NCBI RefSeq assembly: GCF_907164915.1
Contig: NC_061862.1
Span: 35,775,522-35,839,521, forward strand
Direction: 5' to 3'
Origin: Impatiens glandulifera
Lineage: Eukaryota; Streptophyta; Magnoliopsida; Ericales; Balsaminaceae
Length of the DNA stretch: 64,000 nt
Within the stretch, counting starts at the first letter, position 1. Every line of letters starts with the position of its first letter. Positions 2,389 to 50,390 of the stretch are shown piece after piece. A program made the translations under genes and the position numbers. Below the pieces are notes generated by a model that ran no database searches, had not been told where the DNA came from, and saw only the letters and a list, made by a program, of their open reading frames with translations.

Positions 2389-2548
2389 TATTGGGTCAAA
2401 TTATTTTGACTAAGTGTTGAAATAATTTACCCACTGATATTTTAATGATGAAATAATTTATAAGTTTCAATACAGGTGTATTGAGACAACATGTCTCTAG
2501 ACTTGGATCTAATGAGGGGCATTAGACCGATTTTGATTTTCATTCGCA

Positions 2549-3059: not shown

Positions 3060-3730
3060 TAAATTAGACGGATTGTCTAATTAGTGAAAGTTAAACGTGA
3101 GTCTAACTCCTTCAGATTAGTCTGAAGTAGAACCAGAATTAGACGTAGCATTCTAACTCAGTGGAGTTAGACGTGCCGGTTTAATGGTTATTATAATTAG
3201 ACGGGTTGTCTAATTAGTGAAAGTTAGACGTGAGTCTAACTCCTTCAGATTAGTCTGAGGTAGAACCGGAATTAGACGTAGCAGTCTAACTTAGTGGAGT
3301 TAGACGTGCCGGTCTAATGGTTATTATAATTAGACGGGTTGTCTAATTAGTGAAAATTAGACGTGAGTCTAACTCCTTCAGATTAGTCTGAGATAGAACC
3401 GGACTTAGACGTAGCAGTCTAACTCAGTGGAGTTAGACGTGCCGGTCTAATGGTTATTATAATTAGACGGGTTGTCTAATTAGTGAAAGTTAGACGTGAG
3501 TCTAACTCCTTCAGATTAGTCTGAGGTAGAACCGGAATTAGACGTAGCAGTCTAACTCAGTGGAGTTAGACGTGCCGGTCTAATGGTTATTATAATTAGA
3601 CGGGTTGTCTAATTAGTGAAAGTTAGACGTGAGTCTAACTCCTTCAGATATTAGTCTGAGGTAGAACCGGAATTAGACGTGGTAGTCTAACTCAGTGGAG
3701 TTAGACGTACCCGTCTAATGGTTATGTAAA
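3060..3730 (+). repeat. 133-bp tandem repeat, second TTAGAC type, inside LTR
   Basis: TAGAACC recurs at about 3128, 3261, 3394, 3527 and 3662: five units of 133-135 bp. Each unit has perfect small palindromes (ATTAGAC-GGGTT-GTCTAAT and AGTTAGAC-GTGA-GTCTAACT). It differs from the preceding 132-bp unit but is built from the same word, so both probably arose from one founder motif. Confidence 0.88.
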
Positions 3731-4726
3731 TTAGACGCGAGTCTAATTATATTAGACCAGGCGGTCTAATAGACGTTTTTCAATAGAAGGAGTTGACTTA
3801 TTTCATTAGACTGATTTTTTCAAATCCGTCTAACTGAAATACGTATAATGCTCTGTTCAAGCAGTACGCTTGAATCTAGCATTTCTCCTACCCACGTGCT
3901 ATAGTTGTACCCTAATCCTGCTCCACTTTCCAGTGAAGATTAGTACAATAGCTATATGCATCCAATCAAGGAATGCCACGTAAGAGAATTTTCCTCACAT
4001 TACCTGTTTCGCATGTACATCCCTGAAGGAATATTCGGCGCACTACCAGTTCGGTACGGCCACGATCCTTGTGCTCAGAACCTGTTGTGTACAAATGAGG
4101 TTTTCCAATGGAGGAGCGCCACGTTTCATTCTTGAAGATTCGACCGTTAGTCCCTGCTCAGTACTTAAGCAATCCTAAGGACAACGGACAATCTTCCTCA
4201 ACCAATCTTACGAACAAGCAATCTGATTTTGCAGAGAGAGACTACTCAATCATCTTGCTTACTGAATTTACTCTTTGAAGCTTCTTTCTGATTTTACTGT
4301 GTGTGAATCGAGAAAGAGAGCTAAAATCAAAACACCATTAGCTGAGTGATATTCTTTATCTTCTTGTAATTGAACAGAAAGTGTTCTGTTCAATAGTGAA
4401 CTAAGTGTGTGTGCAAACTGTATTTGATTCTCATCATATTATAGTGAATTCTTCCGGTGGTTGGAAGAAGGGATGACGTAAGAGAGTTTCTCTGAACATC
4501 CATAAACAAACTGCTGTGTTCTTCATTTCTGTCATCTTTTCATATTTCATCTTGTGCTTCAAACCCAAGTAAACAATTCCGCCTTGAATCTGTTTCAAGT
4601 GTTTACACAAGTTTGCGTAGAATAGAAAGAGATATTAATCACTAACAGAATTTCTATCAAACCGTTTTTCATAAGCCTTCATCATTAGCTAGACCCATGT
4701 CTCTATTGATAAAGTCGATCCTATCA

Positions 4727-5145
4727 AACTTGTTTCAAAAGTACTAGAAAATCTTAATGCGAATAACGTATAAAATATGTAGTGGAATGAATTAAACTGA
4801 TCTCTCTATTATTGCATTGACATGATTTTTTTTTATACTCACATTCTATTGAATAGTTGTATTTATTTAGTTCCTCTTTTTAATATACAACTATTGACAC
4901 CTTTATGTTTTAATCTCAGATCATGAAGGTGAATCAAATGAGAGACGTAAATATATCGGATATTGCTGCCATAGTGTAGAGGCGCTTATCGGCCCATACA
5001 TGTATAAAAATTCTATAATTCTATAATTCTATTTATCTTTTTATTGTGTTTATTATATATAATTGTTTGATTAATACTATATAATATATTTTAATTGCAG
5101 GATTCCTTCATTATATATCACCGTTTGAACTGTTTATGAGTTCAA
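4727..5145 (+). pseudogene. PEX5: PEX5 fragment copy 1 (exons e and f only)
   Basis: This is the 3' part of a unit; everything upstream was lost at, or lies beyond, the copia insertion. Exon e (4920-5000) follows a CTCAG acceptor and reads VNQMRDVNISDIAAI, matching the PEX5 stretch of type SQMRxxxxxxIAAMEQTR. It is then interrupted by a TAG where Gln is expected. Exon f (5101-5145) lies between TTGCAG and GTAAGT and reads FLHYIS before further change, like PEX5 FLQFVSKMS. Splice signals are intact but the reading frame is not, so no protein is expected. Confidence 0.75.
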
Positions 5146-7200
5146 GTAAGTTATTTTTATCCTACTTAAATTTATATTATCATATTTTTATTTTAGAGCA
5201 TGATAGGTTTGTTTTTTAAAGTCATTTTTTTTATGCATTTTATATTTTAAAAATTATTAGAATTTGAATTTAAATAATCCATGTTTATTTGAAAATAAAT
5301 AAACATATATCATATACTAAGTTTAACTTTGTAAATGTTAAAAATATTAATAAATTTATTAAAATATTATTTTTTATATAAATATAATTTCTTATTAAAT
5401 TTAATTTTTTTATTAAATATTTTTTTATTAAATTTAAATTTGTATTCAACAAATACAAAAGGCATGTTTTCTATTTAATTTGCATTTAACTTACTTTTAT
5501 TAAATTTTAAATTTACATTTAACATATGTATTAAATTTTATTTCGTTTTATACTTATAAATTTCTTAAGGATATTATTCTTTTTTTTTAATATTCTTATT
5601 ATATTTATAAATAATTTTAAATTAAACTTAATTTTATCATTAATTCATAAAAAAAACTTTTATATCTTGCATTCAATAAATTTTTCATTAAATTTAAATT
5701 TGTATTAAACTTATGAAAATTACATTTTTTTAATTTAATCTAATATAATATAATTTTGAATTAAACTTATTTTTTATTAAATTTAATTTTACATTAAACT
5801 TATTTAAAACATGTTTTGCATTCAATTTTATTTAGTTTTTTTACTTATATATTTATTTTTACATTAATCTTATAATCGCTATAAATAATTTAAAATTTTG
5901 ACTTAAATTTAAATTTATTACTAATTCATAAATAAATTTTATATTTTACATTAAATATATTTAATTAAATTTATATATGTATTAAACATATTAAAATTGC
6001 ATTTTTTCTATAAATATAATATAATTTATATTTATATTAAGCTTTTTATAATTATATTTTTTCTTTTTAATATAATATATATTAAATTTAATATTTGTAT
6101 TAAACTTATTTAAAATAAATTTTACATTTTATTTAATTTAGTTTTTTACATATTTATTTCTTATATTAAGAATATTACTTGTTTTTTTAAATATTCTTAT
6201 AATGTTTATAATTAATTTTAAATTAAAATGTTTTTTAAAAATATTTTATAATGTCTATATATAAATTTTAATTTTTCAATTAAAGTTATTTTAAATCATT
6301 AATTCATAAAAACACATTTATATTTTTATAAAATTAAATTTTCTTTTATTAAATTTATTAAAATTACATTTCTTTTTTATTTAATCAAATATAATTTTAA
6401 TTTAATTTAAATTTTGTATTAAACTGATTTTCATTAAATTTGAATTTGTATTAATTTTTTTTTAAATCATATTCTGAATTATATTTTGTTTAGTTTTTTA
6501 CTTATATATTTATTAAATTATATAAGAATATTATTTGTTTTTAAAATATTCTTATAATATTTATAAATAATTTTTAATTTTTAATTAAACTTATATTTAT
6601 TATTAATTCTTAAACAAATTTTTATATTTTACATTATTATTAATCATATTAAAATTTCATTTTTTTCATTTAATCTAATATAATTTAAATTTTGTATTAA
6701 ACTTACTTTTATAAAATTTAAATTAAACTTATTAAAAATATATTTTGTATTAAATTTTATTTAGATTTTTACATATATATTTTTTATATTAAGAATATTA
6801 TTTATTCTTAAATATTCTTATTTATAATGTTTATAAATAATTTTGAATTCATCTTATATTTATCATTAATTCATAAACAAAATTTTCTATTTTACATTAA
6901 ACTATATAATTAAATTATATAAATATTGTGTTATTTCTATATATTCTAATATAATTTAAATTTTGCATGAAACCTATTTTTATTAAATTTAAATTTGTAT
7001 TAAATCTATTCAAAATGTATTTTTGTATTATAGTTTTTAGTTTTTTACTTATATATTTTTTATATTAAGAATATAAATTATTTTTCTATATATTATTTTA
7101 ATGTTTATAAATAATTTTAAATTAAACTTATATGTATCACTAACTCATAAACTAACTTGTATATTTTGTATATTCTTATTAAATTTAAATTTTGCATTAG
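5146..7200. repeat. A/T block 1, internally repetitive
   Basis: The block is almost entirely A and T. The motif AAGAATATT...AATATTCTT followed by TTTATAAATAATTTT recurs at about 5568, 6169, 6526, 6794 and 7066, as do ATTAATTCATAAA and TTAAATTTAAATTTGTATTAAAC. It is therefore a degenerate tandem repeat of roughly 270-360 bp lying in intron position after exon f. No coding potential. Confidence 0.8.
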
Positions 7201-9325
7201 TATTAAATAAAAACCAATATTTGAGAAAAGATCAGAATTTGAACACATTACCATTTACTGCTTGATTATGCGAAAAATTCAAAACAATTGAAAGAAGATT
7301 TTTCGGAAATCTCCAAGAACATTGTGTAAGTAGAGGTATGAGGAATTTTTGCATTACAATAATAGTGAAGGTCTCAGAATGCACATACCACATACCGGGT
7401 GAAACTATTTAAATAAATTTATGAAACAATAACCTAGTTGGATCAATACTAAGGTGAAGTGTGTGGCTCAGAATGCCTGGTTACGGTTACGAACTACTAA
7501 TGAATATCAAGGTAAAGTTTGTTGTCTAAAATTTTGAGTAAAAATTTGAACATAAAGAAAAAAGAAAATATAGTTTTTTTAATTTACAGGGTTTTTTCAA
7601 AGAGATTACAGTTGTCATAATGTCATCAAAGAATGTATTGGATCGATTGACAGGTAAAAATTATTGATTGATTATTTTTTCTATGAACTAATCAACCGTT
7701 ACTTCTGATGGTAACTTCTATCAAGCCAATAATGATCCTCTAAATTTCTTATTTGAATCGAAGTTTTGTTATCATCTTCTACCTCCTAGTACCTATGTCT
7801 CATCTTATCTTTTTTGTCTATAATCTTTTGTCGATAAAATTTTCTAAAATTATTTTTTGACATTTATGCATTTGATTATCAGGGATCAAAATTCATTAGA
7901 GGGTTTTAGCTCTACTGATTAGAATAGACTAGCAACCGACACCAAACATTCAAGTTATTGGCTATATATCGAATGTTAATGGACCTTTGAGAACACAATT
8001 GAATGGTAAACTCTCCATATGAAGGCTTCTGCATTCGCTAAATTATTTTTTATTAGGTAAAGTAGACCTAATTAAAAATTTAAATTTGTTTTCAAGTTTC
8101 TGATTTTGTTCGACTTTGATAAATTGTTTTGATACATTTCTCACGATATTATTTTACACTTTTGAATATTAGTGTGATGAAAAAGTGAACTTTTTTCTTT
8201 CTTGTTGTGTTTCAGGACTGCCCATTTTCAAAGGATTTTTAGTTAATATTCTACATCAATATCAGTATGCTATTAGCAGTGTGTTCCTTTTCATCATTTG
8301 CCTCTTCTAGCAGTATACGTGATCATAGCAACATGAATCATGGGTTAGACACTTATTTATAAATAAAAACATAGAATTCATTAATGCATAGGTGCGCTCC
8401 ATATTTTCTATGAAATCTAAATTTTGAAACTATTGATACATTTCCTTTTAGTTTCTAATTTTATAATGTGTCATGGTCCATCCAAACTATAGTTTTGTCT
8501 AGGTTTTATATTATACAATTTCTATTCATTTTTATTATTTACAAATTCATATGTAGTATGTTGTTTGTCAGGTAATATTGATGGATATGTCAAAGCTAGA
8601 TACCCTGACTTTGAAAGATTCTGTGAATTGGAGGGATATTGAAATAACTCTCAAATTATTTAGAGAGTTGGCCCTAAGGCAGCTAATGGTTGGGTTGACA
8701 AATTTGTTCAACACAAAATAAATCATGGTAATCCAAATTCTTTGGAGAGGCAATTTGGTGTTAGTGGTTGGAATTCTAAATTTTAGCGGGTAGAGCAATT
8801 TACTAAAATTGAATGATGTAAGATTAACTTGGTTTTGTGATACTCTCTATATATTTACAGAGTTTTAATTATTTTTATTTTATCATTTTTTGGAAATTGT
8901 TTCAAAAGCACTAGATAATCTAAATGCGAAAAACGTGTAAAACATCTAGTGGAATGAATTAAACTGATATCTCTATTATTGTATTTATATGATTTTTTTT
9001 ATACTCACATTCTATTGAATGGTTGTAATTTGTTGTATTTATTTAGTTCCTCTTTTTAATATACAGCTATTGACACCTTTATGTTTTATATGTTAAACAA
9101 GATTAATCTCAAATCATGAAGGTGAATCAAATGAGAGATGTAAATATATCGGATATTGCTGTCATTGAGTAGAGGCGCATAAGTATCCATACATGTAAAA
9201 TAATTCAAATTTTCTTTTTATTGTGTTTATTATATATAATAGTTTGATTAACACTGTACAATATATTTTAATTGCATGATTTCTTTATTATATATGACCG
9301 TTTATGAGTTCGTTTATGAGTTCAA
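7201..9325 (+). pseudogene. PEX5: PEX5 fragment copy 2
   Basis: PEX5 is the cytosolic receptor for PTS1 peroxisomal proteins; only its disordered N-terminal half is represented here. Segments: a 7590-7653, a2 7699-7796, b 7883-8005, c 8216-8391, d 8572-8817, e 9113-9194, f 9278-9325. Exon d is the clearest: FERFCELEGYWNNSQ, then GWVDKFVQHK (a WxxxF, PEX14-binding type motif), and here uniquely in frame LERQFGVSGW. Exon c has the shared frame break. A TAG falls after NNSQII in d, the e acceptor has become CTCAA, the f acceptor TTGCAT and the f donor AATAAGT. Dead. Confidence 0.8.
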
Positions 9326-11300
9326 ATAAGTTATTTTATTGAACTACTTAAATTTATATTATCATATTTCTATTTTAGAGCATGATAGGTTTGATTTTAA
9401 AAGTCATTTTTTTATACATTATAGATTTTAAAAATTATTAGAATTCGAATTTAAATAATCTATATTTATTTGGAAATAAATAAACATATATCATAGGCTA
9501 TGTTTAACTTTGTAAATGTTAAAAATATTAATAAATTTATTAAAATATTATTTTTTATATAAATTTAATTTTTTTTATTAAATATATTTTTATTAAATTT
9601 AAATTTGTATTTCACTCATACAAAAAAGATGTTTTCTATTTAATCTGCATTTAACTTACTTTTATTAAATTTTAAATTTACATTTAATATATTTTGTATT
9701 AAATTTTATTTGGTTTTATACTTATATATTTCTAAAGAATATTAATTTTTTTTTTAAATATTCTTATTATATTTATAAATATTTTTAAATTTTGAATTAA
9801 ACTTACTTTTATTATTAATTCATAAACAAACTTTTATATCTTGAATTAAATATATTTTTATTAAATTTAAATTTGTATCAAACTTATAAAATTATATTTT
9901 TTTTAATTTAATCTAATATAATATAATTTTGAATTAAACTTATTTTTTATTAAATTTAATTTTACATTAAACCTATTTAAAACATATTTTGCATTCAATT
10001 ATATTTAGTTTTTTAATTACATATTTCTTTTATTAAATATAATATTTATTTTTCAATTAATCTCGTTATAAATAATTTAAAATTTTGACTTAAATTTAAA
10101 TTTATTATTAATTCATAAATAAATTTTATATTTTAAATTAAACATAATCAATTAAATTTATATATGTATTAAACATATTAAAATTGCATTTTTTCTATAA
10201 ATATAATATAATTTAAATTTATATTTATATTAAGCTTTTTATAATTATTTTTTTTAATATAATATAATGAAATTTAATATTTATATTAAACTTATGAAAA
10301 ATAAATTTTACATTTTATTTAATTTAGTTTTTTACTTATTTATTTCCTATATTAAGAATATTACATGTTTTTTTAATTATTCTTATAATTTTTATAAATA
10401 GTTTTAAATTTTAAATTAAAGTTTTTTTAAAAATATTTTGTAATATTTATAAATAATTTTTCATTTTCAATTAAAGTTATTTTAAATCATTAATTATGAA
10501 AACACTTTTATATTTTTATAAAATTAATTTTTCTTTTATTAAATTTATTAAAAAAAAAATCTCTATTTAATCAAATATTATTTTAATTTAAATTAAATAT
10601 AAATTTTGTATTAAACTGGTTTTCATTAAATTTGAATTTGTATTAAATTTTTTAAAAAACATATTTTGAATTAAATTTTGTTTAATTTTTTATTTATATA
10701 TTTATTGTATTATATAAGAATATTATGTATTTTTAAAATATTATTTATTAATAATTTTTATTTTTTTATTAAACTAATAGTTATTATTAATTCATAAACA
10801 GATTTTTATATTTTGCATTATTATTAATCATATTAAAATTGTATTTTTTCCATTTATTCTAATATAATTTAAATTTTGTATTAAACTTACTTTTATAAAA
10901 TTTAAATTTAGATTAAGATCATTAAAGATATATTTTGTATTAAATTTTATTTAAATTTTTACATATATATTTCTTATATTAAGAATATTATTTATTCTTA
11001 TTATATTTATAAATAATTTTGAATTCAACTTATATTTATCATTAATTCATAAAAAAAAATTCTATTTTGCATTAAACTTATAAATATTGTATTATTTCTA
11101 TTTATTCTAATATAATTTAAATTTTGCATAAAACTTATTTTCATTAAATTGAAATTTGTATTAAATCTATTAAAATATTTTTATATTAAACTTTTTTTAG
11201 TTTTTAAATTAAACTTATATTTATATCTAATTCATAAACTAATTTGTATATTTTGTATAATTTTTATTAAATTTAAAATTTTCATTAATATTAAATAAAA
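9326..11300. repeat. A/T block 2
   Basis: Close copy of A/T block 1 in the same position after exon f, with the same order of sub-motifs (for example TCATTAAATTTGAATTTGTATT) and many small indels. No coding potential. Confidence 0.8.
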
Positions 11301-13370
11301 AAACCAATATTTGAGAAAAGATTAGAATTCGAACAAATTATCACCATTTTGTGCTTGATTATGCGAAAAATTCAAGACAACTAGAAAAAGATTTTTCGGA
11401 AATCTCCAAGAACATTGTGTAAGTAGAGGTATGAGGAATTTTCGCATTACAATAATAATGAAAGTTTGAGAATGCACATACCACGTACCGCATTAAACTA
11501 TTTAATTAAATTCAAGAAATTATAATCTAGTTGGATCAATAGTAAGGTAAAGTGTGTTGCCCGAAATGTCTGGTTACGAACTACTAATGAAGATCAAGGA
11601 AAAGTTTGTTGTCTAAAATTTTGAACATAGAGAGAAAAGAAAATATAATTTTTTTAATTTACAGGTTCTTCCAAAGAGATTACAGTTGTGATAATGTTAT
11701 CAAAAATGTATTAGATCAATTGACAGGTAAAAGTTATTGATTGATTGTTATTTCTATGAACTAATAGACCGTTACTTCTGATGGTAACTTCTACCAAGCC
11801 AATAATGGTCCTCTAAATTTTTTATTTGAATCGTAGCTTGGTCATCATCTTCTACCTACTACTACCCATGTCTCATCTTATCTTTCTGTCTATAATCTTT
11901 TGTCAATAAATTTTTCTGAAGTTATTTCTTAACATTTATGTATTTGATTATCAGGGATCAGAATTCCTAGGAGGGTTTTAGGTCTACTAATTAGAATAGA
12001 CTTGCAACTGACACCAAACATTCAAGTTATTGGCTATATATCGAATGTTAATGGACATTTGAAAACACAATTGAATGGTAAACTCTCCATATGAAGGCTT
12101 CTGTATTCTCAAGTTATTTTCTATAAAGTAAAGTAGACCTAATTAAAATTTTAAATTTGTTTTCATGTTTTTGATTTTGTTCGAATTTGATAATTTATTT
12201 TGATACATTTCTCACAATATTGTTTTACACTTTTGAATATTAATGTGATGAAAAAGTGAGTTGTTTGTTTCTTATTGTGTTTCAGGACTGTCCTCATTCA
12301 AAGGATTTTTAGTAAATCTTCTACATCATTTTTCTATTAGCACTGTGTTCCTTTTCATCATTTTCCTCCTCTAGTTTTAGGCTTGACACAAGGTAACAAA
12401 CAACACAGTATATGTGATCATAGCAACATAAATCATGGGCTAGACACTTTCTTTATCGATAAAAGTAAAGAATTCATTAATGCACAGGTTGCGTTTCATA
12501 TTCTCTGTGAAATCTAAATTTTGAAATTATTAATACATTTTCTTTTAGTTTCTACTTTTAGCATACAAGCATAATCTGTCATGGTTTATCCAAACTATAG
12601 TTCTGTCTGGGGTTTATATTTTACAAATTCTATGCATTTTCATTATTTGCAAATTCACATGTAGTATGTTATTTGTTAGGTAATATTGATGAAGATGTCA
12701 AAGTTAAATACCATCACCTTCAACACAAAATAGATCATAGTAATCTGAATTCTTTGGTTGTGTTTGGAGGGGCAATCTGGTGCTTTTGGTTGGACTTCTG
12801 AATTTGAGCGGGTAGAGCAATTTACTAAAATTAAATAATGTTATAGCTTAATTTGGTTCTGTGATGCTCTCTATATATTTAGAGAGTTTTAATTATTTTA
12901 ACTTTATTATTATTTTGGAACTTGTTTCAAAATCACTAGAAAATTTAAACACGAAAAACGTGTAAAATATCTAGTGGAATGAACTAAACTAATCTCTATT
13001 ATTGCATTGACATGATTTTTTTATACTCACATTCTTTTTAATGGTTGTAACTTGATGTATTTATTAAGTTTTTTTTTTAATATACATTATTGACACATTT
13101 ATGTTTTGTATGTTAAACATGATTAATCTCATATCACGAAGGTGAATCAAATGAGAGACGTATAAATATCGGATATTGCTGCCATAGAGTAGAGGCGCTT
13201 GTTGGTCCATACATGTATAATAATTCTATTTATCTTTGTTGGTCCATACATGTATAATAATTATAAATATATTTTTATTGTGTTTATTATATATAATTGT
13301 TTGATTAACACTATACAATATATTTTAATTGCAGGATTCCTTGATTATATATCACCATTTATGAGTTCAA
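11301..13370 (+). pseudogene. PEX5: PEX5 fragment copy 3
   Basis: Segments: a 11665-11726, a2 11772-11869, b 11955-12077, c 12286-12487, d 12680-12840, e 13133-13214, f 13335-13370. Exon b begins GSEFLGGF, exon c carries LGLTQGNKQHS, and f reads FLDYISPFMSSSK between TTGCAG and GTAAGT. Exon d has lost its centre: CATCACCTT joins directly to CAACACAAAATAG, removing the WxxxF block GWVDKF. The e acceptor is CTCAT, and e has the TAG shared with copies 1 and 2. A local duplication of about 42 bp (13202-13262) repeats GTTGGTCCATACATG. Dead. Confidence 0.78.
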
Positions 13371-15450
13371 GTAAGTTATTTTCATCCTACTTAAATTTAT
13401 ATTATCATATTTCTATTTTAGAGCATGATATGTTTGTTTTTAAATGAATGAGTAATTTTTTTTATGCATTATAAATTTTAAAAATTATTCGAATTCGAAT
13501 TTAAATAATCTATATTTATTTAGAAATAAATCAACTTATATCATATACTAAGTTTAACTTTCTAAATGTTAAAAATATTATTAGGTGTATTAAAATATTA
13601 TTTTTTGTATAAATATAATTTCTTATTTAATTTAAAATTTTCATAAAATTTAAATTTGTATTCACCTCATACAAAAGACAGTTTTCTATTTAATTTGCAT
13701 TTAACATACTTTTATTAAATTTAAATTTACATTTAACATATTTTGCATTAAATTTTATTTCGTTTTATACTTATATATTTCTTAAGAATATTTTTATTTT
13801 TTAAATATTCTTATTATATTTATAAATAATTTTAAACTTTGAATTAAACTTATTTTTATCATTCATTCATAAACAAACTTTCATATTTTGCATTAAAAAT
13901 ATTTTTCATTAAATTTAAATTTGTATTAACCTTATAAAAATGGAATCTTTTCAATTTAATCTAATATAATTTAATTTTGAATTAAAATTATTTTTTATTA
14001 AATTTAATTTTACATTTAACCTATTTAAAACATATTTTGCATTCAATTTATTTAATTTTTTATTTATATATTTTTTATATTAAAAACAATATTTATTTTT
14101 AAATTAATCTTATAATCATTATAAATAATTTAAAATTTTGACTTAAATTTAAATTTATTATTAATTCATAAATAAATTTTCTATTTTACATTAAATATAT
14201 TAATTAAATTTAAATTTGTATTAAAAATATTAAAATTTCATTTTTTCTATAAATATAATATAATTTAAATTTATATTCATATTAAGCTTTTTATAATTAT
14301 ATTTTTTTTTAAATTTAATATTTATATTAAACTTATTAAAAATAAATTTTACATTTTATTTTATTTAGATTTTTACTTGTATATTTCTTATATTAAGAAT
14401 ATTACTTATTTTTTAAATATTCAAATAATGTTTATAACTAATTTTAAATTTTAAATTTTAAATTCAAGTTTTTTATATATATTTTATAATGTTTATAAAT
14501 AATTTTAGTTTTCAATTAAATTTATATTAAATCACTAATTCATAAAAAAAACTTTTATATTTTTATAAAATTAATTTATTTTTATTAAATTTTATAAAAT
14601 TAATTTTTTATTTATTTAATCAAATATAATTTTAATTTTACTTAAATTTAAATTTTTTTATTAAACTGATTCTCATTAAATTTGAATTTATATTAAAATT
14701 TTAAAAACATATATTTTGAATTATTTTTTGTTTAATTTTTTTACTTAAATATTTATTATATTATATAAGAATATTATTTATTTTTAAAATATTCTTATAA
14801 TATTTATAAATAATTTTTAATTTTTAATTAAACTTATATTTATTATTAATTCATAAACAAATTTTTATATTTTTCATTAGTATTAATCATATTAGAATTG
14901 TATTTTTTTATTTTATCTAATATAATTTAAATTTTGTATTAAACATACTTTTATAAAATTTAAATTTAGATTAATCTAATTAAAAATATATTTTGTACTA
15001 AATTTTATTTATATTTTTACATATATATTTCTTATATTAAGAATATTATTTCTTCTTAAATATTCTTATTATATTTATAAATAATTTTGAATTCAACTTA
15101 TATTTATCATTAATTCATAAATAAAAATTTTCTATTTTTCATTAAACTTATAAATATTGTATTATTTTTATTTATTCTATTATAATTTAAATTTTGCATG
15201 AAACCTATTTTCATGAAATTTAAATTTGTATTGAATCTATTGAAAAACGTATTTTTTTATTAAAGTTTTTTTTTGTTTTTTTACTTATATAATTTTTAAA
15301 TTAAGAATATAATTTATTTTTAAATTTATTATAATGTTTATAAATAATTTTAAGTTAAACTTATATTTATCACTAATTCATAAACTAATATTTATATTTT
15401 ATATATTTTTTTATTAAATTAAAATTTTTCATTAGTATTAAATAAAAAAC
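13371..15450. repeat. A/T block 3
   Basis: Third copy of the roughly 2-kb A/T block, collinear with blocks 1 and 2. Confidence 0.8.
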
Positions 15451-17507
15451 TAATTTTTGTGAAAAGATTAGAATTCGAACACATGGTCATTTTGTGCTTG
15501 ATTATGGGAAAAATTCAAGACAACTAAAAGAAGATTTTTCAGAAATCTCCAAGAACATTGTGTAAGTAGAGGTATGAGGAATTTTCGCATTACAATAATA
15601 GTGAAAGTCCGAGAATGAACATACCACGTATCGAGTGAAATTATTTAAATAAATTCAAGAAACGATAATCTAGTTGGATCAATACTAAGGTGAAGTGTGT
15701 TGTCTGGAATGTCTGGTTACGAACTACTAATGAAGATCAAGGTAAAGTTTGTTATCTAAAATTTTTTAAAACTTGAACATAAAGAGAAAAAAATAATTTT
15801 TTTAATTTTACGGAGTTCTTCCAAAGAGATTACAGTTGTGATAATGTCATCAAAGAATGTATTAGATCGATTGACAGGTAAAAATTATTGATTGATTATT
15901 TTTTCTATGAACTAATCAACCGTTATTTCTGATGGTAACTTTAACAAGCCAATAATGTTTCTCTAAATTTCTTATATTAATCGGAGTTGGTCATCATCTT
16001 CTAACTACTACTACTACCGATGTCTCATCTTATCTTTCTGTCTATAATCTTTTGTCAATAAACTTTTCTGAAGTTATTTCTTGATATTTATGCATTTGAT
16101 TATTAGAGATCAGAATTCCTTGGAGGGTTTTAGCTCTACTAATTAGAATAGACTAGAAACCGACACTAAACATTCAAGTTATAGGCTATATATCGAATGT
16201 TAATGGACCTTTGAAAATACAATTGAATGGTAAACTCTCCATATGAAGGTTTCTGCATTCGCTCAAGTTATTTTCTATAAGGTAAAGAAGACCTAATTAA
16301 AATTTTAAATTTTTTTTCAAGTTTTTGATTTTGTTCGAATTTGATAAATTGTTTTGATACATTTTTTAAGATATTGTTTTACACTTTTGAATATTAGTGT
16401 GATGAAAAGGTGAGCTGTTTGTTTTTGGTGTGTTTCAGGACTGCCCTCATATAAAAGGTTTTTTTTTGTAAATCTTCTACATCAATTTGTTAATAGCAGT
16501 CAAGCTAGTGTTCCATTTCATCCTTTGCCTCTTTTAGTTTTAGGCGTGTCAGAAGGTGACAAACAATACATTATACATGATTGTAGCGACATGAATCATA
16601 GGCTAGAGACTTAATGTGTCATGGTCCTACCAAACTATGATTCTACCTAGGTTTTATATTTTACAATTTTTTATGCATTTTCATTATTTTCAAATTCTTA
16701 AGTACTATGTTACTTGTTAAGTAAAATTGATGGAGATGTCAAAGCTAGATACCCTCACCTTGAGAGATTCCATAAATTGTAAGGATATTGGAATAAGTCT
16801 TAAAATATTCAAAGAGATGGTCCTAAGGAAGCTAATGGTTGGGTTGACAAATTTGTTCAACACAAAATAGATCATGGTGATCCATTTTTTGTCTATCTTT
16901 GGAGAGGCAATCTGGTGCTAGTGGTTGTACTTCTGGATTAGAACGAGTTGAACAATTTACTGAAAATGAATGATGTGATGCTCTATATATTTATAGACTT
17001 TAATTATTTTAATTTTTTCATTCTTTTGGAACTAGTTTCAAAAGAACAAGAAAATCTAAATGCGGAAAACGTGTAAAACATCTAGTGGAATGAACTTAAA
17101 TGATCTCTCTATTATTATTATATTGACATGATGTTTTTTTATACTCACACTATATTGAATGGTTGTATCTTTATGTATTTATTTAGTTTCTTTTTTTAAT
17201 TAGAGTGAATGGTTGTATCTTTATGTATTTATTTAGTTTCTTTTTTTAATTGACACCTTCATGTTTTTTTACGTTAAACAGGATTAATCTCAGATCATGA
17301 ATGTGAATCAAATTAGAGACGTAAATATATCGGATATTGCTGCCATGGAGCGGAGCAGCTTGTTGGTCCATACATATATAATAATTCTATTTATCGTTTT
17401 AATGAGTTTACTCTATATAATTGTTTGAATAACACTATACAATAATTTTTAATTGCAGGATATTATTAGAATCCTTATTCATTATATATTAGCGTTTTTG
17501 TGTTTAA
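15451..17507 (+). pseudogene. PEX5: PEX5 fragment copy 4
   Basis: Segments: a 15814-15877, a2 15923-16022, b 16107-16229, c 16439-16612 (3' end and donor deleted, joined to intron sequence at GAGACTTAATGTG), d 16721-16973, e 17294-17374, f 17459-17507. Exon e (AAMERSSLLVHT) lacks the TAG seen in copies 1-3. Exon f carries an extra ATATTATTAGAATCC at its start that copies 1-3 lack. The acceptors of a (TTACGG) and d (GTTAA) are mutated. A duplication of about 50 bp lies in the d-e intron (17157-17250). Dead. Confidence 0.78.
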
Positions 17508-19445
17508 GTAAGTTTTCTTTCCTATTTAAATTTATATTATCATATTTTATTTTAGATACATGTTATGTTTTTATGCATTATAGGTTTAGTTTTAGATGCA
17601 TGATATAATTTTAATTTTTTTAAGGCATTATAGATTTTAAAAATTATATGAATTCAAATTTAATAATTCAATTTTTAATTTGGTAATAAATAAACTTATA
17701 TCTTATCTTTTGTTTTAATGTAAATGTTAAAAATATTATAATAATTTATATTAGATTTATTAAAATCTTATTTTACATTTTTTCTAATTTAATTTTTAAA
17801 TACATCATATTTAAATCAAAATTATTATTTTATTTAATTTTATTTTTAACATAATAATAATTATTTTTTTATATAAATTTGATTTTTCATTAAATTTAAA
17901 TTTTATATTAAACATATTTTTATTAAATTTAAATTTTTATTTAACTTATAAAAAAAATTTCTATTTTATCTAATATTATATAAATTTTACATTTAACTTA
18001 TTTTTATTAAATATAAATTTGCATTCAACAAATTTGGATTCAATTTTATTTAATTTTACTTATATATTTTTTAAGAATATATTTTTTTTAAATATTCTTA
18101 TAATTTATTATTTTTATGAATAATTTTAAATTTTGAATTAAACTTATTTTTATCATTAATTAATAAAACAATTATAGTTTAAATTAAACATATTTTGTAT
18201 TAAACTTATAAAAATTGTATTCTTTTCAGTTTAATCTAATTAAACCTATTTAAAAAATATTTTGCATTTAATTTTTATTTAGATTTACTAATATATTTCT
18301 TATATTAAAAATAATTATTATTTTTGTGAACAATCTTATAATTTTTATAAATAATTTAAAATTTTGACTTAAATTGAAACTTATTATTAATTCATAATTA
18401 AATTTTATATTTTACATTAAATTTAAATTTGCATTAAAATTATTAAAATTGCATTTTTTTTATATAAATATAATATAATTTAAATTATTTTTTAAATAAT
18501 ATTTTATATTCTTATAATCTAATATAATTTAAATTTTTTTTTATTAAACTTATTAATTTTTTTCATTATATTTTATTTAATTTTTTACTTATATATTTCT
18601 TATATTAAGAATATTACTTGTTTTAAATATTCTTATAATGTTTATAAACAATTTTCAATTTTCATTTAAACTTATATTATATTATTAATTCATAACATTT
18701 TAATATTTTTATAAAATTAAATTTGTATTAAATTTATTAAAAAAAATTTATTTAATCAAATTTAAATAAATTTTCATATAATAATTAGAAATTATTTTAA
18801 AATTTTAATTAAACTCATATTATCATTAATTCATAAACATATTTTCATATTTTGCACTAAATGTATTTTTATTAAATTTAAATTTCATTAAACTTATTAA
18901 AATTACATTTTTTTATTTAATCTAATATAATTTAAATTTGGTATGAAACTTACTTTCATTAAATTTAAATTTGAATCAAGCTTATTAAAATCATATTTTG
19001 TATTAAATTTTTACTTATATATTTCTTTTATTAAGAATATTTATTTATTTTTTAAATACTCTTACTATGTTTATAAATAATTTTAAATTTAACTTATATT
19101 TATCATTAAATCATAAACAAACTTTTATATTTTGCATTAAACTTATAAAAATTATATTATTTCTAATTAATATAATAAAATTTAAATTTTTTAATAAATA
19201 TATTTTTATTAAATTTAAATTTGTATTAAATCTATTAAACACAAATTTTGCATTAATGTTTATTTACTTTTTTTACTTATATATTTGTTATATTATGAAT
19301 ATTATTTATTTTTTAAAATATTCTTATTATGTTTATAAATAATTTTAAAATAATCTTATATTTATCACAAATTCATAAACAAACTTTTATATTTGGTATA
19401 TTTATGTTAAATTTAAATTTTGCATTATTATTAAAAAACAAAAAA
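17508..19445. repeat. A/T block 4
   Basis: Fourth A/T block. It begins with extra copies of ATGCATTATAG-type sequence and shares the variant start found in block 5. Short ORFs around 19067-19535 lie in this sequence and are not genes. Confidence 0.78.
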
Positions 19446-21316
19446 AAATTGAGAAAAGAGACTATAATTCGAATACGCTATCGTTTTGTGCTTGATAATG
19501 CGAAAGATTCAAGACAACTAAAAGGAGATCTTTAATAAATCTCTTAGAGCATTGTGTAAGTAGAGGTATGAGGTTTTTTATATTACAATAATAGTGAAGG
19601 TACGAGAATGCACATACCACGTACAAAGTAAATCAATTTAAATAAATTCAAGAAACGATAATTTACTTGGATCAATACCAAAATGAATTGTGTTGCCCGG
19701 AACAAACTACTCATGAAGATCAATGTAATGTTTATTGTCTAAAATTTTGAGTAAAAATTTGAACAGAAAGAAAAAATATAATTCTTAAATTTGCAGGGTT
19801 CTTCCAAATTTAGAGAGATCAAGTTGTGGTAATGGCATCAAAGAATATATTTGATCAAATTGACAGGTAAAAAATATTAATTGATTGTTTTTTCTATGAA
19901 CTAATCAACCGTTACAACTGATGGTAATTCTACCAAGCCAATAATGATCCTCTAAATTCCTTATTTAGATCGGAGCTTGATCATCATCTTCTACCTACTA
20001 CTACCCATGTCTCATTTTATCTTTTTGTCTATGATCTTTTGTCAATAAACTTTTCTGATGTTATTTCTTAACATCTATGCATTTGATTATCAGGTATCAG
20101 AATTCTTTGGAGGGTAATAGCTCTACTAATCAGAATAGACTGCATTCCAGTTATTGGCTATATATCGAATGTTAATGGAACTTTGAAAATACAAGTGGAT
20201 GGTAAACTCACGCTTATGCATTCACTCAACTTATTTTCTATAAGGTAAATAAAGTAGACCTAATTAAAATTTGAAATTTGTTTTCAAGTTTCTGATTTTG
20301 TTTGAATTTGATAAATTATTTTGATACATTTCTCACGATATTATTTTTTGATCATTCAAATAGTTTTTAGTAAATCTTCTACATCAATTTGATAATATCA
20401 GTCAAGATTGTGTTCCATTTCTTGCCTCTTCTAGCTATAGGCTTGTCACCACAATAAATGTTCGTCGAAACATGAATCATGGGCTAGACACTACTTTGCC
20501 TATAAAAACAAATAATTCAATAATGCACAAGTTGCGCTCCATATTCTTTATGAAATCTAAAATTTTAAACTATTGATACATTTTCTTTTAGTTTCTATTT
20601 TTCATAATGTATCATGGTCCTTCCAAACTATTTTATGTCTAGATTTTTTATTTTACAATTTCTATGCATTTTCAATATTTGCAAATTTATATGTACTATG
20701 TTACTGGTTAGGTAAAATTGATGGAGATGTCAAAGCTAGATGCCCTCACCTTGAGAGATAGATTCCGTAAATTGTATGGATATTGGAATAACTCTCAAAT
20801 TATTTAGAGAGTTATTCCTAAGGCAACTAATGGTTGGGTTGACAAATTTGTTCAACACAAAATAGATCATGGTGATCCAAATTCTTTAGTTGTCTTTGGA
20901 GAGACAGTCTGGTGCTAGTGGTAGTGGTTGGACTTTTGAGCTAGTAAAACAATTTACTAATATTGAAATATTGAATGATGTAAGCTTAACATAGTTTTGT
21001 GATGCTCTCTTTATTTACAGAGTTTTAATTATTTTAATTTATCATTATTTTGGAAATTGTTTCAAAAGCACGAAAAAATCTAAATGTGAAAAACGTTTAA
21101 AACATTTAGTGGAATGAACTAAAATAATCTCTCTATTGCCATGGAGCAGAGCCGATTATTGGTCATACATGTATAATAATTTTATTTATCATTTTAATGT
21201 GTTTACTATATATATGTTTATATATATGTTTGTTTGAATAACACTATACATTATATTTTAATTGCAGGATATTATTAAAATCCACATCCATTATATATTA
21301 ACGTTTATGAGGTCAA
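19446..21316 (+). pseudogene. PEX5: PEX5 fragment copy 5
   Basis: Segments: a 19797-19866, a2 19909-20008, b 20094-20201, c 20351-20530 (acceptor and 5' end deleted), d 20712-20979, e remnant 21138-21170, f 21268-21316. Exon d opens GKIDGDVKARCPHLER, close to the PEX5 stretch before RFRELxxYWN, and later keeps GWVDKFVQHKIDHGDPN. A deletion removes most of the d-e intron and the start of exon e (CTCTATTG joins CCATGGAGCAG), leaving AMEQSRLL, the copy closest to the expected AMEQTR. Dead. Confidence 0.78.
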
Positions 21317-22146
21317 GTAAGTTTTCTTTTGACCATACTTAAATTTGTATTATCATATTTCTATTTTAGATGCATGATATGTTTTTATGCATTATATATT
21401 TATTTTAAGATGCATGAAATAATTTTTATTTTTGTTATGCATTATAGATTTTAAGACTTATAAGAATTCAAATTTAAATAATCCAATTTTTAGTTTAGAA
21501 ATAAATAAACCTGTATCTTATTATTAGTTTTATTTTAAATTTGTAAAATGTTAAAAATATTATAAGAATTTCTATTAGATTTAATAAAATCTTATTTTAT
21601 ATTTTTTAAATTTAATTTTTAAATACTTCAAATTTAAACCAAAATTATTATTTTATTTAATTTTATTTTTAACATAATAATAATAATTATTTTTTATATA
21701 AATTTGATTTCTCATTAAATCTAAATTTTTTTCATTAAACATATTTTTATTAATTTAAACTTACATTTAAATTATAAAAAATTACATTTTTCTATTTAAT
21801 CTAATAATATATAAATTTTACATTTAACTTATTTTTATTAAATTTGAATTTGCATCTAACTTATATATTTCTTAAGAATTATTACATATATAATTCTTAA
21901 GAATATTTTTGTAAATATTATTGTTATTTATTTTTTTATAAATAATTTTAAATTTGGAATTAAACTTAATTTATCATTAATTCATAAACAAATTTTTATA
22001 TTTTGCATTAAACTTATAAAAATTATTTTTCAGTTTAATTTAATCTAATATAATTTAAATTTTATATTAAATTTATTTTCATTAAATTTAAATTTGCATT
22101 AAAACTATTTAAAACGTATTTTATATTTAATATTTATTTAGATTTA

Positions 22147-22189
<43 letters not shown>

Positions 22190-23100
22190 CAAATAATAAT
22201 CTTATAATGTTAATAAATAATTTAAATTTTTGACTAAATTTTAATTTATTATTAATTCATAAATAAAAATTATATTTTATATTGAATGTATTTAATTAAA
22301 TTTAAATTTGCATTAAACTTATAAAAATTTCATATTTTCTATAAATATAATATAATTTTAATTAGTATTAATTTTTTATAATTATTTTTTAATAATCAAA
22401 TATAATTTAAACATTCACATAAAATTTTTTAAGTATTCTTATAATATTTATAAATAATTTTAAAATTTTAATTAAACTCATATTATCATTCATTCATAAA
22501 CACATTTACATATTTTTGAACTAATTGTATTTTCATTACATTTAAATTTATATTAAACTTATTAATATTGCATTTTTTATATTTAATCTAATATAATTTA
22601 AATTTTGTATTAAACTTACTTTAATTAAATTTAATTTTGGATCAAGCTTATTATAAACATATTTTGTATTAAATTTTAAATTTTTACTTTTATAATTATT
22701 ATGTTAAGAATATTATTTATTTTTTTAAATAGTCTTACTATTTTTATAAATAATTTTGAATTAAACTTATATTTATCATTAAATCATAAACAAACTTTTA
22801 TATTTTTTATATATAAATTATAAAAATTGTATTAATTCTATTTAATCTAATATAATTTAAATTTTTTAATAAACCTATTTTTATTAAATTTAAATTTGTA
22901 TTAAATCTATTAAACATATATTTTGCATTAATGTTTATTTATATATTTTTTACTTATATATTTGTTATTTTATTTATTTTTTTAAATATTCTTATTATAA
23001 TTATAAATAATTTTAAATTAATCTTATATTTATCAAAAATTCATAAACAAACTTGTATATTTTTATTGAAATTAAATTTATATTATTATTAAATAATAAA
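21317..23100. repeat. A/T block 5 with a TA microsatellite
   Basis: Fifth A/T block, slightly shorter. It includes a pure TA run at 22149-22188 that the other blocks lack. Confidence 0.78.
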
Positions 23101-25301
23101 CCAACATATGATAAAAATAAACCATAATTCGAACACGCTACCGTTTTGTGCTTCATAATGAAAGATTCAAGACGGCTAAAAGGAGATCTTTAGGAAATGT
23201 CCTAGAACATTTTGTAAGTAGAGGTAGGAGGTATTTTCGCATTACAATAATAGTGAAGGTCGAGAATGCACATACCACGTACCAGGTGAAACAATTTAAA
23301 TAAATTCAAGAAATAATAATCTAGTTGGATCAATACCAAGATGAAGTGTGTTGCCCGGAATGTCCGGTTACAAACTACTCATGAAGATCAATGTAAGGTA
23401 TGTTGTCTAAAATTTTGAGTAAAAATTTTAATAGAAAGAGTAAAAAAAAATATTTTTTTTTTCAATTTGGAGTATTCTTTCAAATATAGAGAGATTCCCG
23501 TTGAGATAATGTCATCAAAGAAGGTATATGATCGAATTGACAGACAAATATTATTAATTAATTGTTTTTTATGAACTAAGCAATCGTTACTTCTTATGGT
23601 AACTTCTATAAAGTTAGTCATTAATGATCCTCTAAATTCCTTATTTGGATCGGAGCTTGGTCATCATCTTCTACCTACTAGTACCCATGCTCCATCTCAT
23701 TTTTTTGTCTATGATTTTTTGTCAATAAATCTTTTTGAAGTTATTTCCTGACATCTATGCATTTGATTATTAGGGATCAGAATTCCTTGGAGGGTTTTAA
23801 CTCTACTAATTAGAATAGACTAGCAATCGACACTAAACATTCTAGTTATTGGTTATATATTGAATGTTAATGGACCTTTGAAAATACAATTGGATGGTAA
23901 ACTCCCCATTTGAAGGTTTCTGTATTCGCTCAAGTTATTTTCTTGAGCGGTAAAATAGACCTAATTAAAATTTGAAATTTATTTTCCAGTTTTTGATTTT
24001 GTTTGAATTTGATAAATTGTTATGATACATTTCTCACGACATTGTTTCACAATTTTCAATATTAGTCTGATGAAAAAGTGAGTTGTTTGTTACTCGTTGG
24101 GTTTCATAAATTCCTTCATTCAAAGGATTTTATTAAATTTTCTAAATCTATTTGTTAGTAGTAGTTAAGTTAGTATTCATTTTCATCCTTTACCTCTTTC
24201 AGTTTTGGGCATTAAACGTGATTGTAGCAACATGCATCATGGGTTAGACACTTCTTTGCCGATAAAAGCAAATAATTTATTAATGCACAGTTGCGCTCCA
24301 TATTCTCTATGAAATCTAAATTTTAAAACTATTGATACATTTTAGTTTAGTTTCTACTTTTAGAATACAAGGTTAATGTGTCATGGTCCTTCCAAAATAT
24401 AGTTATGTCTAGGTTCTATATTTTAAAATTTCTATGTGTTTTCATTATTTACAAATTCATATGTAGTATGTTACTTGTCAGGTAAAATTGATAGAGAAGT
24501 CAAAGCTAGAGACCTCATCATGAGAGATTCCGTGAATTGGAGGGATATTGGAATAACTCTCAAATTATTCAAAGAGTTGGTCTTAATGTAGTTAATGGTT
24601 GGGCTTACAAATTTTTTCAACACATAATAAATCATGGTGATCCAAATTCTTTGGATGTCTTTAAAGAGGCAATATGGTGCTAGTGGTTGGAATTCTGAAT
24701 TTGAGCGGGTAAAACAATTTACTAAAATTGAATGATGTAAGTTTAACTTGTTCCGTGATTCTCTCTACATATTTACAAAGTTTTAATGATTTTAATTTTA
24801 TCATCCTTTTAGAACCTTTTTCAAAAGCACGAGAAAAAATAAATGCGGAAAACTTGTAAACATCTAGTGGAATGAATTAAAATGATCTCTCTATTATTCC
24901 ATTGACATGATTTTTTTTATACTCACACTCTATTGAATGGTGTAACTTGATGTATTTATTTAGTTCCTTTTTTTAATATACAACTATTGACACTTTTATG
25001 GTTTGTATGTTAAATATGATTAATCTGAGACCATGAATGTGAATCAAATGAGAGACGTACATATATAGGATATTGCTGCCATGAAACAGAACCCGCTTGT
25101 TTGTCCATACAGGTATAATAATTCTGTTTTATCTTTTTAATGATTTTTCTATATATAATTGTTTAAATAACACTATACAATGTATTTTTAATAACAGGAT
25201 ATTATTAGAATCCTCCTTCATTATATTATATATGAGCGTTTAAAAATACTAGGATATTATTAGAATTCACCCTCATTATATATGAGTGTTTATGAATTCA
25301 G
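23101..25301 (+). pseudogene. PEX5: PEX5 fragment copy 6
   Basis: Segments: a 23471-23543 (donor GT changed to AC), a2 23586-23688, b 23774-23896, c 24108-24290, d 24482-24736, e 25030-25112, f 25198-25301. Exon c in one frame reads RHFFADKSK, a stop, then FINAQ, which is nearly the PEX5 core RHFFADRxxEFINSQ. The GLSQGDKQ stretch before it is deleted. Exon f is locally duplicated (GGATATTATTAGAAT occurs twice). Like copies 4 and 5, it has the longer f start. Dead. Confidence 0.8.
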
Positions 25302-25925
25302 GTAAGTTTTCTTTTCATCCCATTATAATTTATATAATCACATTTATATTTTATATGTATTATATATTTGTATGCATTGATTTATTTTGGATGCATGATA
25401 TAATTTTTTTTTGTTATGTATTATAAATTTAAAAATTTATAAGATTTAAATTTAAATAATTCAGGTTTAGTTTAAAAATAATAAATTTATATGATATCCT
25501 TAGTTTTAGTGTAATTTTGTAAATGTTAAAAATATTAATAGAATTTGTATTTGATTTATTAAAATCTTATTTAACATTTTCTATATTTAATCATATATAA
25601 TTTAAATTTTAAATAAATCAAATTTAAATCAAAACTATTACTTAATTTAATTTTATTTTTAACGTAAAATTATTATTTTTTATATAAATTTATATTCTCA
25701 TTAAATTTTAATTTTGCATTAAACATATTTTTATAAAATTTAAATTTATGTTTAACTTATAAAATATACATGTTTACTATTTAATCTAATATAATATAAA
25801 TTTTGAATTTTTTTATTTAAATTTAAATATACATTTAACATATTTTGTATTAAATTTTATTTCATTTTAACTTATATATTTTTTATGAATATATTTTTTA
25901 AATAATTTTAAATTTTGAATTAAAT
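25302..25925. repeat. A/T block 6, truncated
   Basis: Only the first 600 bp of the A/T block remain. Near 25925 it joins directly to the intron before exon c, so the rest of the block and segments a, a2 and b are missing from the last unit. Confidence 0.75.
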
Positions 25926-27031
25926 TTGTTTTCTAGTTTCTAATTTTGTTTGAATTTGATAAATTGTTTTGAAACGTTTATCACGACATTGTTTCACACT
26001 ATTGAATATTAGTGTGATGAAAAAAAAAAGCAATTTGTTTCTCATTGTGTTTTATTAGGACTTCCCTCATTCAAAGGGTTTTTAGTAAATTTCTACACCA
26101 GTTTGTTAATAGCAGTCAAGCTAGTGTTCCTTTTCATCTTTTCATCATTTGCCTCTTCTAGTTTTAGGTTGTCAATAGGTGATAAACAACACAATATACG
26201 TGATCGTAGCAACATGCATCATGGGCTAGACACTTATTTGTCGATAAAAGAAAAGAATTCATTAATGCATAGGTTACGCTCCATATTCTCTATGAAATCT
26301 AAATTTTAAAACTCTTGATACATTTCATTTTAGTTTCTACTTTTAGCATAAAAGGATAATGTGTCATGGTCAATCTAAACTACGGTTCTTTCTAGGTTTT
26401 ATATTTTACAATTAGTATGCATTTTTATTATTTGAAAATTCATATGTAGTATGTTATTTGTTAGGTAAAATTGATAGAGATGTCAGAGCTAGAGGCCCTC
26501 ATCTTGAGAGATTCCCTGAATTGGAGGGATATTGGAATAACTCTCAAATTATTTAGAGAGTTGGTCCTATGGCAGCTATGGTTAGACAACACATAATCGA
26601 TCCTGGTAATCCCAATTCTTTGGATGTCTTTGGAGAGGCAATATGGTGCTAGTGGTTGGACTTCTGAAATTGAGCGGGTAGAACAATTTACTGAAATTGA
26701 ATTATGTAAGCTTAACTTGGTTATGTAATGCTCTTTACATATTTACAAAGTCTTAATAATTTTAATTTTATCATCCTTTTGGAACCTGTTTCGAAAGCAC
26801 GCGAAAAACTAAATGTAAAAAACTTGTAAAACATTTAGTGAATGAACTAAAATGATCAATCTATTATTGCATTGACATGATTTTTTTATACTCACATTCT
26901 ATTAAATAGTTTTAACTTGATATATTTATTTAGTTCATTTTTTTAATATACAACTATTGAAACTTTTATGGTTTGTATGTTAAATATGATTAATCTCAGA
27001 TCATGAAGGTGAATCAAATGAGAGACGTAAA
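25926..27031 (+). pseudogene. PEX5: PEX5 fragment copy 7, cut by an LTR retrotransposon
   Basis: Segments: c 26059-26272, d 26465-26705, e 27000-27031. Exon c reads IGDKQHNIRDRSNMHHGLDT, matching PEX5 SDKQCIRDRSSIM. The expected ARHFFAD then lies in another frame because of the extra bases shared by all copies. Exon d has FPELEGYWNNSQII and a stop. Exon e is interrupted after AGAGACGTAAA by an LTR beginning TGTTAG at 27032; the rest of the exon is absent. Dead. Confidence 0.82.
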
Positions 27032-28296
27032 TGTTAGATAAAATTAGACCGGTTCACATAAGCCTAACTTAAATAAACCTTGCATGCAGGAACAAGGAAC
27101 CGGACCGGACAAACAAAAGAACCGGCTAAAGAAAACTAGCCGGTCAAGTCACTAAACCGACCAGGAACACTTGGAACATGACCGCACAAAGAAAGGATCG
27201 GCCAAAGCTTAAAACCGAAAACATCAGACAGCCGATCAGCCACAAGGTAGAGGAATAACCGGAAGAAGTCCGGTTATACCACTCACACCGGAAGCCATCC
27301 GGTTAAGTCAAATGACCGACCAGTACAAGAAGACAATTCGGGTATCTGTTGAGTATGATACCAAAGGAACAGACTGAACACTTCCATATCTATACAAGTC
27401 TGAGGAAAGTCTGCATGCTGCAGAAGACAGTCCTACAGGATCTTTCCACTTCGGGATAAGTCAGAAAGGAGATCTTTCAAGTACAGACAACTGTCTAATA
27501 GACAATGTCCACATTGAGTAAAAGACAAACCTAGCAGGTTTGTCTTACACACCGGAAGAACAGACTGCCAAGTCTGCGAGATTGACCGTCAGACGACCGC
27601 ATGGTTTGAAACACTGAATCACTGAACCTCTGCTCAGCCAATCAGATTCAAGGAAGTGAAATATGACCGTTGGCATACTTTACCTATAAAAGGAGCAGTT
27701 GAAGAAGAGTAAATGCGGGACAAGTGAGAAATTCTAAGGGCATTTTAATTTACAAGTGAAAACAGTGCGTTCTATCTCTAGAGAAAGCCTGAGTGCTAGT
27801 GTGTGTATTTTACAATTCCGGTGTAAATTGTAAGAGTGTTATCGAGCATAAAATAAGTCTCGATCGGATTGTATTTGTATTCCTTAGTGAATATCCTTCT
27901 CGCGGTTTCGAGAGGAAGGGGTGACGTAGGAGTTTTATCTCCGAACATCCATAAAATCGCTTTTTTCATTTACTTTCTGCCGGTTCCATTTTCTAACCGA
28001 CCCATATCGCTATAACCGACTTAACTCTATTCAAGCCGAATCACCAGGTTACCGAAACCGACCCATCAATTTTCAAACCTTCATCATCCGAAACCGGTTC
28101 TGCCTATCATACAAGTGTGCTGCTTCAACCTGAAAGCAAACCTCTTCCGCGCTTGAACCTAGTTTAAGAGTTTGTGACAGGTTGTGTAGTATTGAAACCC
28201 CGGTGTTAATCTCTAATCGGATTAACCACCACCCTTCGAGTGAGAACCGCTAACCGGTCCAACCCCGGTCCTCCAGCGGCTACCTAGATCCTAACA
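27032..28296 (+). mobile_element. 5' LTR (1265 bp) of a Sirevirus-like copia element
   Basis: It starts TGTTAG and ends CTAACA, a 6-bp inverted pair, and is followed after two bases by a primer site. It interrupts PEX5 exon e. The sequence is markedly less AT-rich than the array and full of ACCGG/CCGGTT words. It contains a TATA box and a GGGGTGACGTAGGAG leader block shared with the LTRs ending at 4726 and 56071. No matching 3' LTR is present. Confidence 0.9.
27684..27692 (+). promoter_or_regulatory. TATA box of the 1265-bp LTR
   Basis: CTATAAAAG lies about 650 bp into the LTR with no competing motif nearby. It would place transcription start near 27715-27725. Confidence 0.7.
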
Positions 28297-47560: not shown

Positions 47561-47601
47561 TCCTTTTCCTTTCAACCCCAATTGTTTTATAACTTCAATA
47601 T

Positions 47602-50379: not shown

Positions 50380-50390
50380 ATCTCCCAGGT
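50380..50390 (-). other. Polypurine tract of D
   Basis: Minus-strand CCTGGGAGATT directly before the 3' LTR; in the truncated copy the same place reads AAGTGGGAGAT. Confidence 0.8.

Follow-up and report, generated by a model that had tools for sequence, protein, structure and literature searches.

A tandem array of a disabled, intron-bearing PEX5 fragment in Impatiens glandulifera

The window analysed here is a stretch of 64,000 nucleotides from the Impatiens glandulifera genome (contig NC_061862.1, positions 35,775,522 to 35,839,521 of the forward strand). Self-comparison of the window revealed a head-to-tail array of direct repeats, recurring about every 4 kb, that extends from position 4727 to approximately 27031, as proposed in a preliminary description of this DNA. 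That description counted seven copies; the array actually comprises five full-length units (3.76 to 4.17 kb), one unit from which about 2 kb has been deleted, and one 250-bp partial copy. With the array start taken as a unit border, the units, all on the + strand, are unit 1 (4727 to 8893; 4167 bp), unit 2 (8894 to 12918; 4025 bp), unit 3 (12919 to 17029; 4111 bp), unit 4 (17030 to 21053; 4024 bp), unit 5 (21054 to 24812; 3759 bp), unit 6 (24813 to 26782; 1970 bp), and partial unit 7 (26783 to 27032; 250 bp). Unit 1 reads, in order, intron D/E, exon E, an AT-rich block, an upstream block, and exons A, B, C, and D, so that the left edge of the array lies in the middle of a PEX5 intron. Unit 6 is without most of the AT-rich block, the upstream block, and exons A and B, and its deletion join is near 25915 to 25920.

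Long terminal repeats (LTRs) border the array on both sides. The left LTR (2392 to 4697, + strand, TGGGTC...GACCCA, with limits set by eye) is read as the 3' LTR of a copia-type element, and the reading frames of the left element (139 to 543 and 1838 to 2206) had no Pfam match. This LTR carries a minisatellite at 2609 to 3749, with 132- to 133-bp units, 94 to 96% matches, and a richness in TTAGAC/GTCTAA. Between the left LTR and the start of the array are 29 bp. An ungapped comparison of these 29 bp with the array gave at best 17 matches of 29, and the mean for shuffled sequence, taken at one seventh of the positions, was 17.2. On the right, the 5' LTR of another element (27032 to 28296, + strand, TGTTAG...CTAACA) is inserted in exon E of the seventh copy, which it cuts at 27031/27032; base 27032 can be assigned to either the unit or the LTR. 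The sequence directly after this LTR is presumably a typical primer-binding site, and an open frame farther on has a Pfam match to a copia-type gag. The right border of the array is an LTR insertion that interrupts it, and more of the array may lie past the element, outside the window. A search by pattern for the far junction of the right element returned two matches with three mismatches each, fewer than expected by chance.

Neither Rfam nor tRNA searches of the window gave a match. Other repeats in the window include a minisatellite at 41431 to 41832 (69- to 76-bp units, 82 to 88% matches), approximately five copies of a 73-bp repeat at 44267 to 44636 (92% matches), and a direct duplication of about 980 bp at 47599 to 49547, whose two adjacent copies are 85.8% alike. 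A direct repeat of about 1.5 kb, perhaps a pair of LTRs, is present at 30368 to 31888 and 49791 to 51356 (83% alike), and a third partial copy at 54509 to 55069 is 99% like the copy at 49791 to 51356. An assembly gap of 500 N lies at 63231 to 63730.

Five exon-derived stretches, A to E, recur in the array on the + strand and in the order of the gene. Their residue limits are given relative to P0065, an I. glandulifera PEX5 protein. Exon A (residues ~51 to 80) is at 7699 to 7788 in unit 1, with other copies at 11772 to 11861, 15923 to 16013, 19912 to 20000, and 23587 to 23680. Exon B (residues ~81 to 131) is at 7883 to 8006 in unit 1 and recurs at 11955 to 12078, 16107 to 16230, 20094 to 20202, and 23774 to 23897. 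Exon C (residues ~130 to 201) occupies 8216 to 8408 in unit 1, and its other copies are at 12286 to 12505, 16439 to 16610, 20353 to 20548, 24108 to 24307, and 26059 to 26290. Exon D (residues ~205 to 279), which holds the WxxxF/Y-like stretches, is at 8574 to 8789 in unit 1 and at 12682 to 12811 (partly deleted), 16723 to 16946, 20714 to 20943, 24484 to 24708, and 26467 to 26677; it is 130 nt long in one copy and 211 to 230 nt in the others. Exon E (residues ~280 to 310) is at 9101 to 9195, with further copies at 4910 to 5002, 13121 to 13215, 17282 to 17376, 21137 to 21171 (partial, 35 nt), 25018 to 25113, and 26988 to 27032 (cut, 45 nt). Over the seven segments of the array there are therefore five copies of exon A, five of B, six of C, six of D, and seven of E, and the count of seven stands for exon E alone.

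The introns have been kept. Stretches without a PEX5 match part the exons, and splice-like borders are present in many copies. Exon B is preceded by AG and followed by GT in five of five copies; AG precedes exon C in four of five copies and exon E in two of five. The AG/GT borders described earlier are thus found in many copies, though not in all. Two of the peptide texts described earlier were less general than they had seemed. Among the alignments RHFFADKSK is exact in one copy only (24246), and FLHYIS, which had been taken for an exon, is exact in one of six copies (near 5103), reads FLDYIS in another, and has no PEX5 match of its own.

The derivation of the array from PEX5 was evaluated with 120 of the 496 proteins found with an Arabidopsis query, many of them from named plants. 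All 120 proteins matched the window in tblastn, with 1193 matches at an E value of ≤1e-3, none of which fell outside 4700 to 27100 or on the - strand. There were no matches in the window for the 120 reversed proteins, and none when the reversed window was compared with the PEX5 proteins. The top match among the 120 was P0065 at 16471 to 16884 (E value of 6.5e-28). On the raw sequence P0065 also had the highest summed score (935.8 bits; 659.5 for the next of the 120 proteins), and the best single matches scored 112 for P0065, 109 for P0116, and 96.7 for the next protein. This ranking points to Impatiens or a relative as the probable host. P0065 and P0116 are both I. glandulifera PEX5 proteins and are 84% identical. 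The species thus has at least two such proteins, and the single-copy parent that had been assumed for the array is not supported.

The copies span approximately residues 51 to 310 of P0065. Searches of the window with the rest of the protein yielded chance-level results for residues 1 to 50 (best E value of 0.5), residues 314 to 450 (1.1), and the TPR half (4.1), so the absence of the TPR domain, which had also been proposed, is confirmed for the window. The exon E match in the first copy extends to residue 328 at 5048, an extension that we read as a chance run into the intron. In a FastTree analysis (249 columns, the same 120 of 496 proteins), the unit consensus grouped with P0065 (support of 0.97) inside the Impatiens pair (support of 1.0). 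The consensus query was a composite peptide drawn from several copies, and because the Impatiens alignment, with P0065, guided its assembly, both its identity of 72.8% and its position in the tree flatter the match somewhat; we treat the placement as supporting, not as independent evidence. The top rank of P0065 on the raw sequence is independent of the composite. A better relative may exist among the others of the 496 proteins. With exons A to E in gene order on the + strand and PEX5 matches confined to the array, the ancestry of the array in PEX5 is clear.

Each full unit also holds about 1.5 to 1.9 kb of sequence that is 91% AT, with limits set by eye. In unit 1 this AT-rich block is at 5345 to 7195, and its equivalents are at approximately 9520 to 11290, 13580 to 15440, 17740 to 19440, and 21560 to 23095. 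Tandem Repeats Finder reported periods of 248 to 299 bp inside the block, and no strong single period was found there by autocorrelation (peak of 0.47 to 0.49 versus 0.43 expected). Between the AT-rich block and exon A is an upstream block of about 450 bp (7215 to 7660 in unit 1, + strand). In units 1 to 5 it contains pieces that resemble exons, several of the copies also showing splice-like borders. The upstream block had no Pfam match with one peptide from each of three frames, and one frame compared with proteins gave no match; because that comparison reached proteins of ~62 to 196 residues, a longer source gene is possible. The block may come from a PEX5 intron, from the 5' part of PEX5, or from a different gene.

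Capture of a PEX5 fragment by a DNA transposon or Helitron, with subsequent insertion or replication of the element head to tail, could also account for a gene piece that retains its introns, as capture at the DNA level would, and for an array that begins in mid-intron. However, no Helitron 3' end was found on either strand of units 1 to 5 with a strict pattern (a perfect GC-rich hairpin plus CTRR) that degenerate ends could escape, and the upstream block matched no protein in the frames searched. We consider capture unlikely.

Every one of the seven segments contains stops or frameshifts. The five segments with exons A to E have 2 to 6 stops and 6 to 12 frameshifts each, which is an undercount because exon D was counted in part. 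Several lesions are common to the copies. In exon E, TAA replaces the Gln281 codon in six of the six copies in which the site remains, the site being gone from the seventh. All five copies of exon B carry two frameshifts and a missing stretch, and a further stop in this exon is common to four of the five, with CAG kept in one. In exon C, the stretch with a frame break before ARHFF is of equal length in all six copies; the frameshift itself was placed in five of the six, the alignment of segment S3 ending at that point.

By parsimony, with lesions common to all copies that keep the sites, the PEX5 fragment was most likely inactive before it multiplied, although later gene conversion among copies could mimic such a history. 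This order of events speaks against direct amplification of a working single-copy gene. A functional gene was rejected for the array, which has stops or frameshifts in every copy and matches the TPR half at chance level.

The gene-derived parts of the seven segments differ from one another by 9 to 20%. Over aligned bases, units 1 to 3 are 89 to 90% identical to each other (90.1% for unit 1 versus unit 2), units 4 and 5 are 85.6% identical, and units 1 to 3 are 82.5 to 84.6% identical to units 4 and 5. Unit 6 was left out of these whole-unit values, its raw values of ~70% reflecting misalignment around the deletion. The array had been called satellite-like. With about six copies in the window, 9 to 20% different, and units 1 to 5 on long branches of their own, this term is not supported, and a homogenised satellite was rejected for the window.

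Divergence in segments S1 to S6, with the short S0 left out, was 15.1% in exons (1271 of 8396 comparisons), 14.3% in introns (1375 of 9595), and 14.9% in the upstream block (661 of 4424). With exons and introns nearly equal, the copies show no trace of constraint at the protein level. Of the exon indels, 14 of 34 were multiples of three; the corresponding numbers were 4 of 33 for introns and 7 of 16 for the upstream block. The exon value lies close to one third, the proportion expected at random, but some earlier frame constraint may have existed. When singletons were polarised by majority, C-to-T and G-to-A changes were, per base, 8 and 4 times commoner than their reversals, and no effect of context on C-to-T change was seen (CG, 11 of 194; CHG, 11 of 190; CHH, 128 of 2260). 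By its retained introns, disabling lesions, and lack of visible constraint, the locus looks like an old array of unprocessed pseudogenes.

The same measurements bear on two further explanations. One is that the array remains active, for instance by giving rise to regulatory RNA for working PEX5 genes. Repetition of sequence related to a housekeeping gene is in keeping with this idea, for which there is nothing direct, but no constraint was seen among the copies, which are direct repeats, and continued activity is highly improbable. The other is that a single unit was assembled several times. The 500-N gap demonstrates that the assembly is not gap-free. However, copies that are 9 to 20% apart and have indels of their own argue against repeated assembly of one unit, an error that we regard as very improbable; they do not argue against a wrong number of units, which could still be present.

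Relationships among the copies provide some information on how the array grew. Units 4 and 5 grouped with support of 0.999 to 1.0 for the whole unit and for each of three parts. Grouping within units 1 to 3 shifted along the unit (supports of 0.74 to 0.96). For exons C to E, segments 5 and 6 grouped (0.99), as did segments 3 and 4 (0.85). Exchange among copies is weakly indicated. Terminal branches for the whole unit were 0.09 to 0.16. The groupings fit, without proving, an old stepwise unequal exchange with little homogenisation since.

We consider it likely that a dead PEX5 fragment was duplicated by unequal crossing-over and then decayed neutrally. The starting point would have been a genomic fragment (~residues 51 to 310, with introns and an AT-rich stretch) that was already inactivated. 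This fragment would then have been duplicated head to tail, probably through unequal crossing-over, the mechanism that we infer, aided by the AT-rich repeats. Growth to at least six units may have been followed by neutral decay with little homogenisation, and an LTR retrotransposon would later have cut the right end, another now adjoining the left end. Several points weigh against this explanation. The left edge lies in mid-intron and is followed outward by 29 bp of unrelated sequence, unlike the outcome of a simple in-place duplication within the gene. The weak indication of exchange among copies, the exon indels in multiples of three, and the lack of a strong single period in the AT-rich block are further such points.

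An arbitrary starting phase in the unit would be expected if an extrachromosomal circle carrying the fragment had formed a concatemer that then inserted. The left edge in intron D/E agrees with such an origin, as does a right edge that falls no more than about 250 bp from that phase. However, the LTR sets the right edge, so the near match in phase may be coincidence, and the presence of older and younger groups of units is what stepwise duplication gives. Insertion from a circle is accordingly improbable, and stepwise duplication by unequal crossing-over is the explanation that we favor.

If plant sequences change at about 7e-9 substitutions per site per year, the terminal branches correspond to the order of 10 to 20 million years, a rough figure only. 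PMC12598466 calibrates the split between I. noli-tangere and I. glandulifera at 8.47 to 27.21 million years. Considered together, the rough branch age and the date of this split suggest that some species may share the array. Two whole-genome duplications are also reported for I. noli-tangere in the same paper (PMC12598466). Such duplications could have been a source of spare PEX5 copies.

The array provides a clear case in which a fragment of a housekeeping gene became, together with its introns, a tandem repeat on the kilobase scale. Its sequence allows a likely order of events to be read: death, then amplification, decay, and retrotransposon insertion. The array could also lead gene predictors to annotate fragmentary PEX5 genes, and it has no shown bearing on peroxisome biology. 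Titles and abstract openings, among the matches listed, included no PEX5-derived or comparable plant array, which is weak evidence of absence.

Plant genomes hold tandemly duplicated pseudogenes and gene fragments. The PEX5 array is like these in being unprocessed, with introns kept, disabled, and arranged head to tail, and unlike them in that the repeated part is confined to the interior of the gene and each unit has an AT-rich block. Pack-MULE and Helitron capture moves gene pieces with introns, and the array likewise consists of a gene piece with introns; no Helitron 3' end was found in units 1 to 5 by the strict pattern. Drosophila Stellate and related casein-kinase-derived repeats are many, similar, and expressed. 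The PEX5 array shares with Stellate its birth from a housekeeping gene as tandem repeats, whereas its copies are few and diverged and their sequences give no sign of function. The human macrosatellites D4Z4 and RS447 consist of numerous homogenised copies, and reading frames are intact in some of them. Like them, the array has kilobase units in tandem that derive from or contain genes; unlike them, it has about six diverged, disabled copies. There is a small chance that the array is an early gene-derived macrosatellite, in which a dead PEX5 piece with AT-rich repeats forms a family at further Impatiens sites, between gene duplication and the birth of a satellite. Interest in the array would rise if the unit were a dispersed repeat family. 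Set beside these systems, the locus belongs with tandemly arrayed fragments of unprocessed pseudogenes and is moderately surprising.
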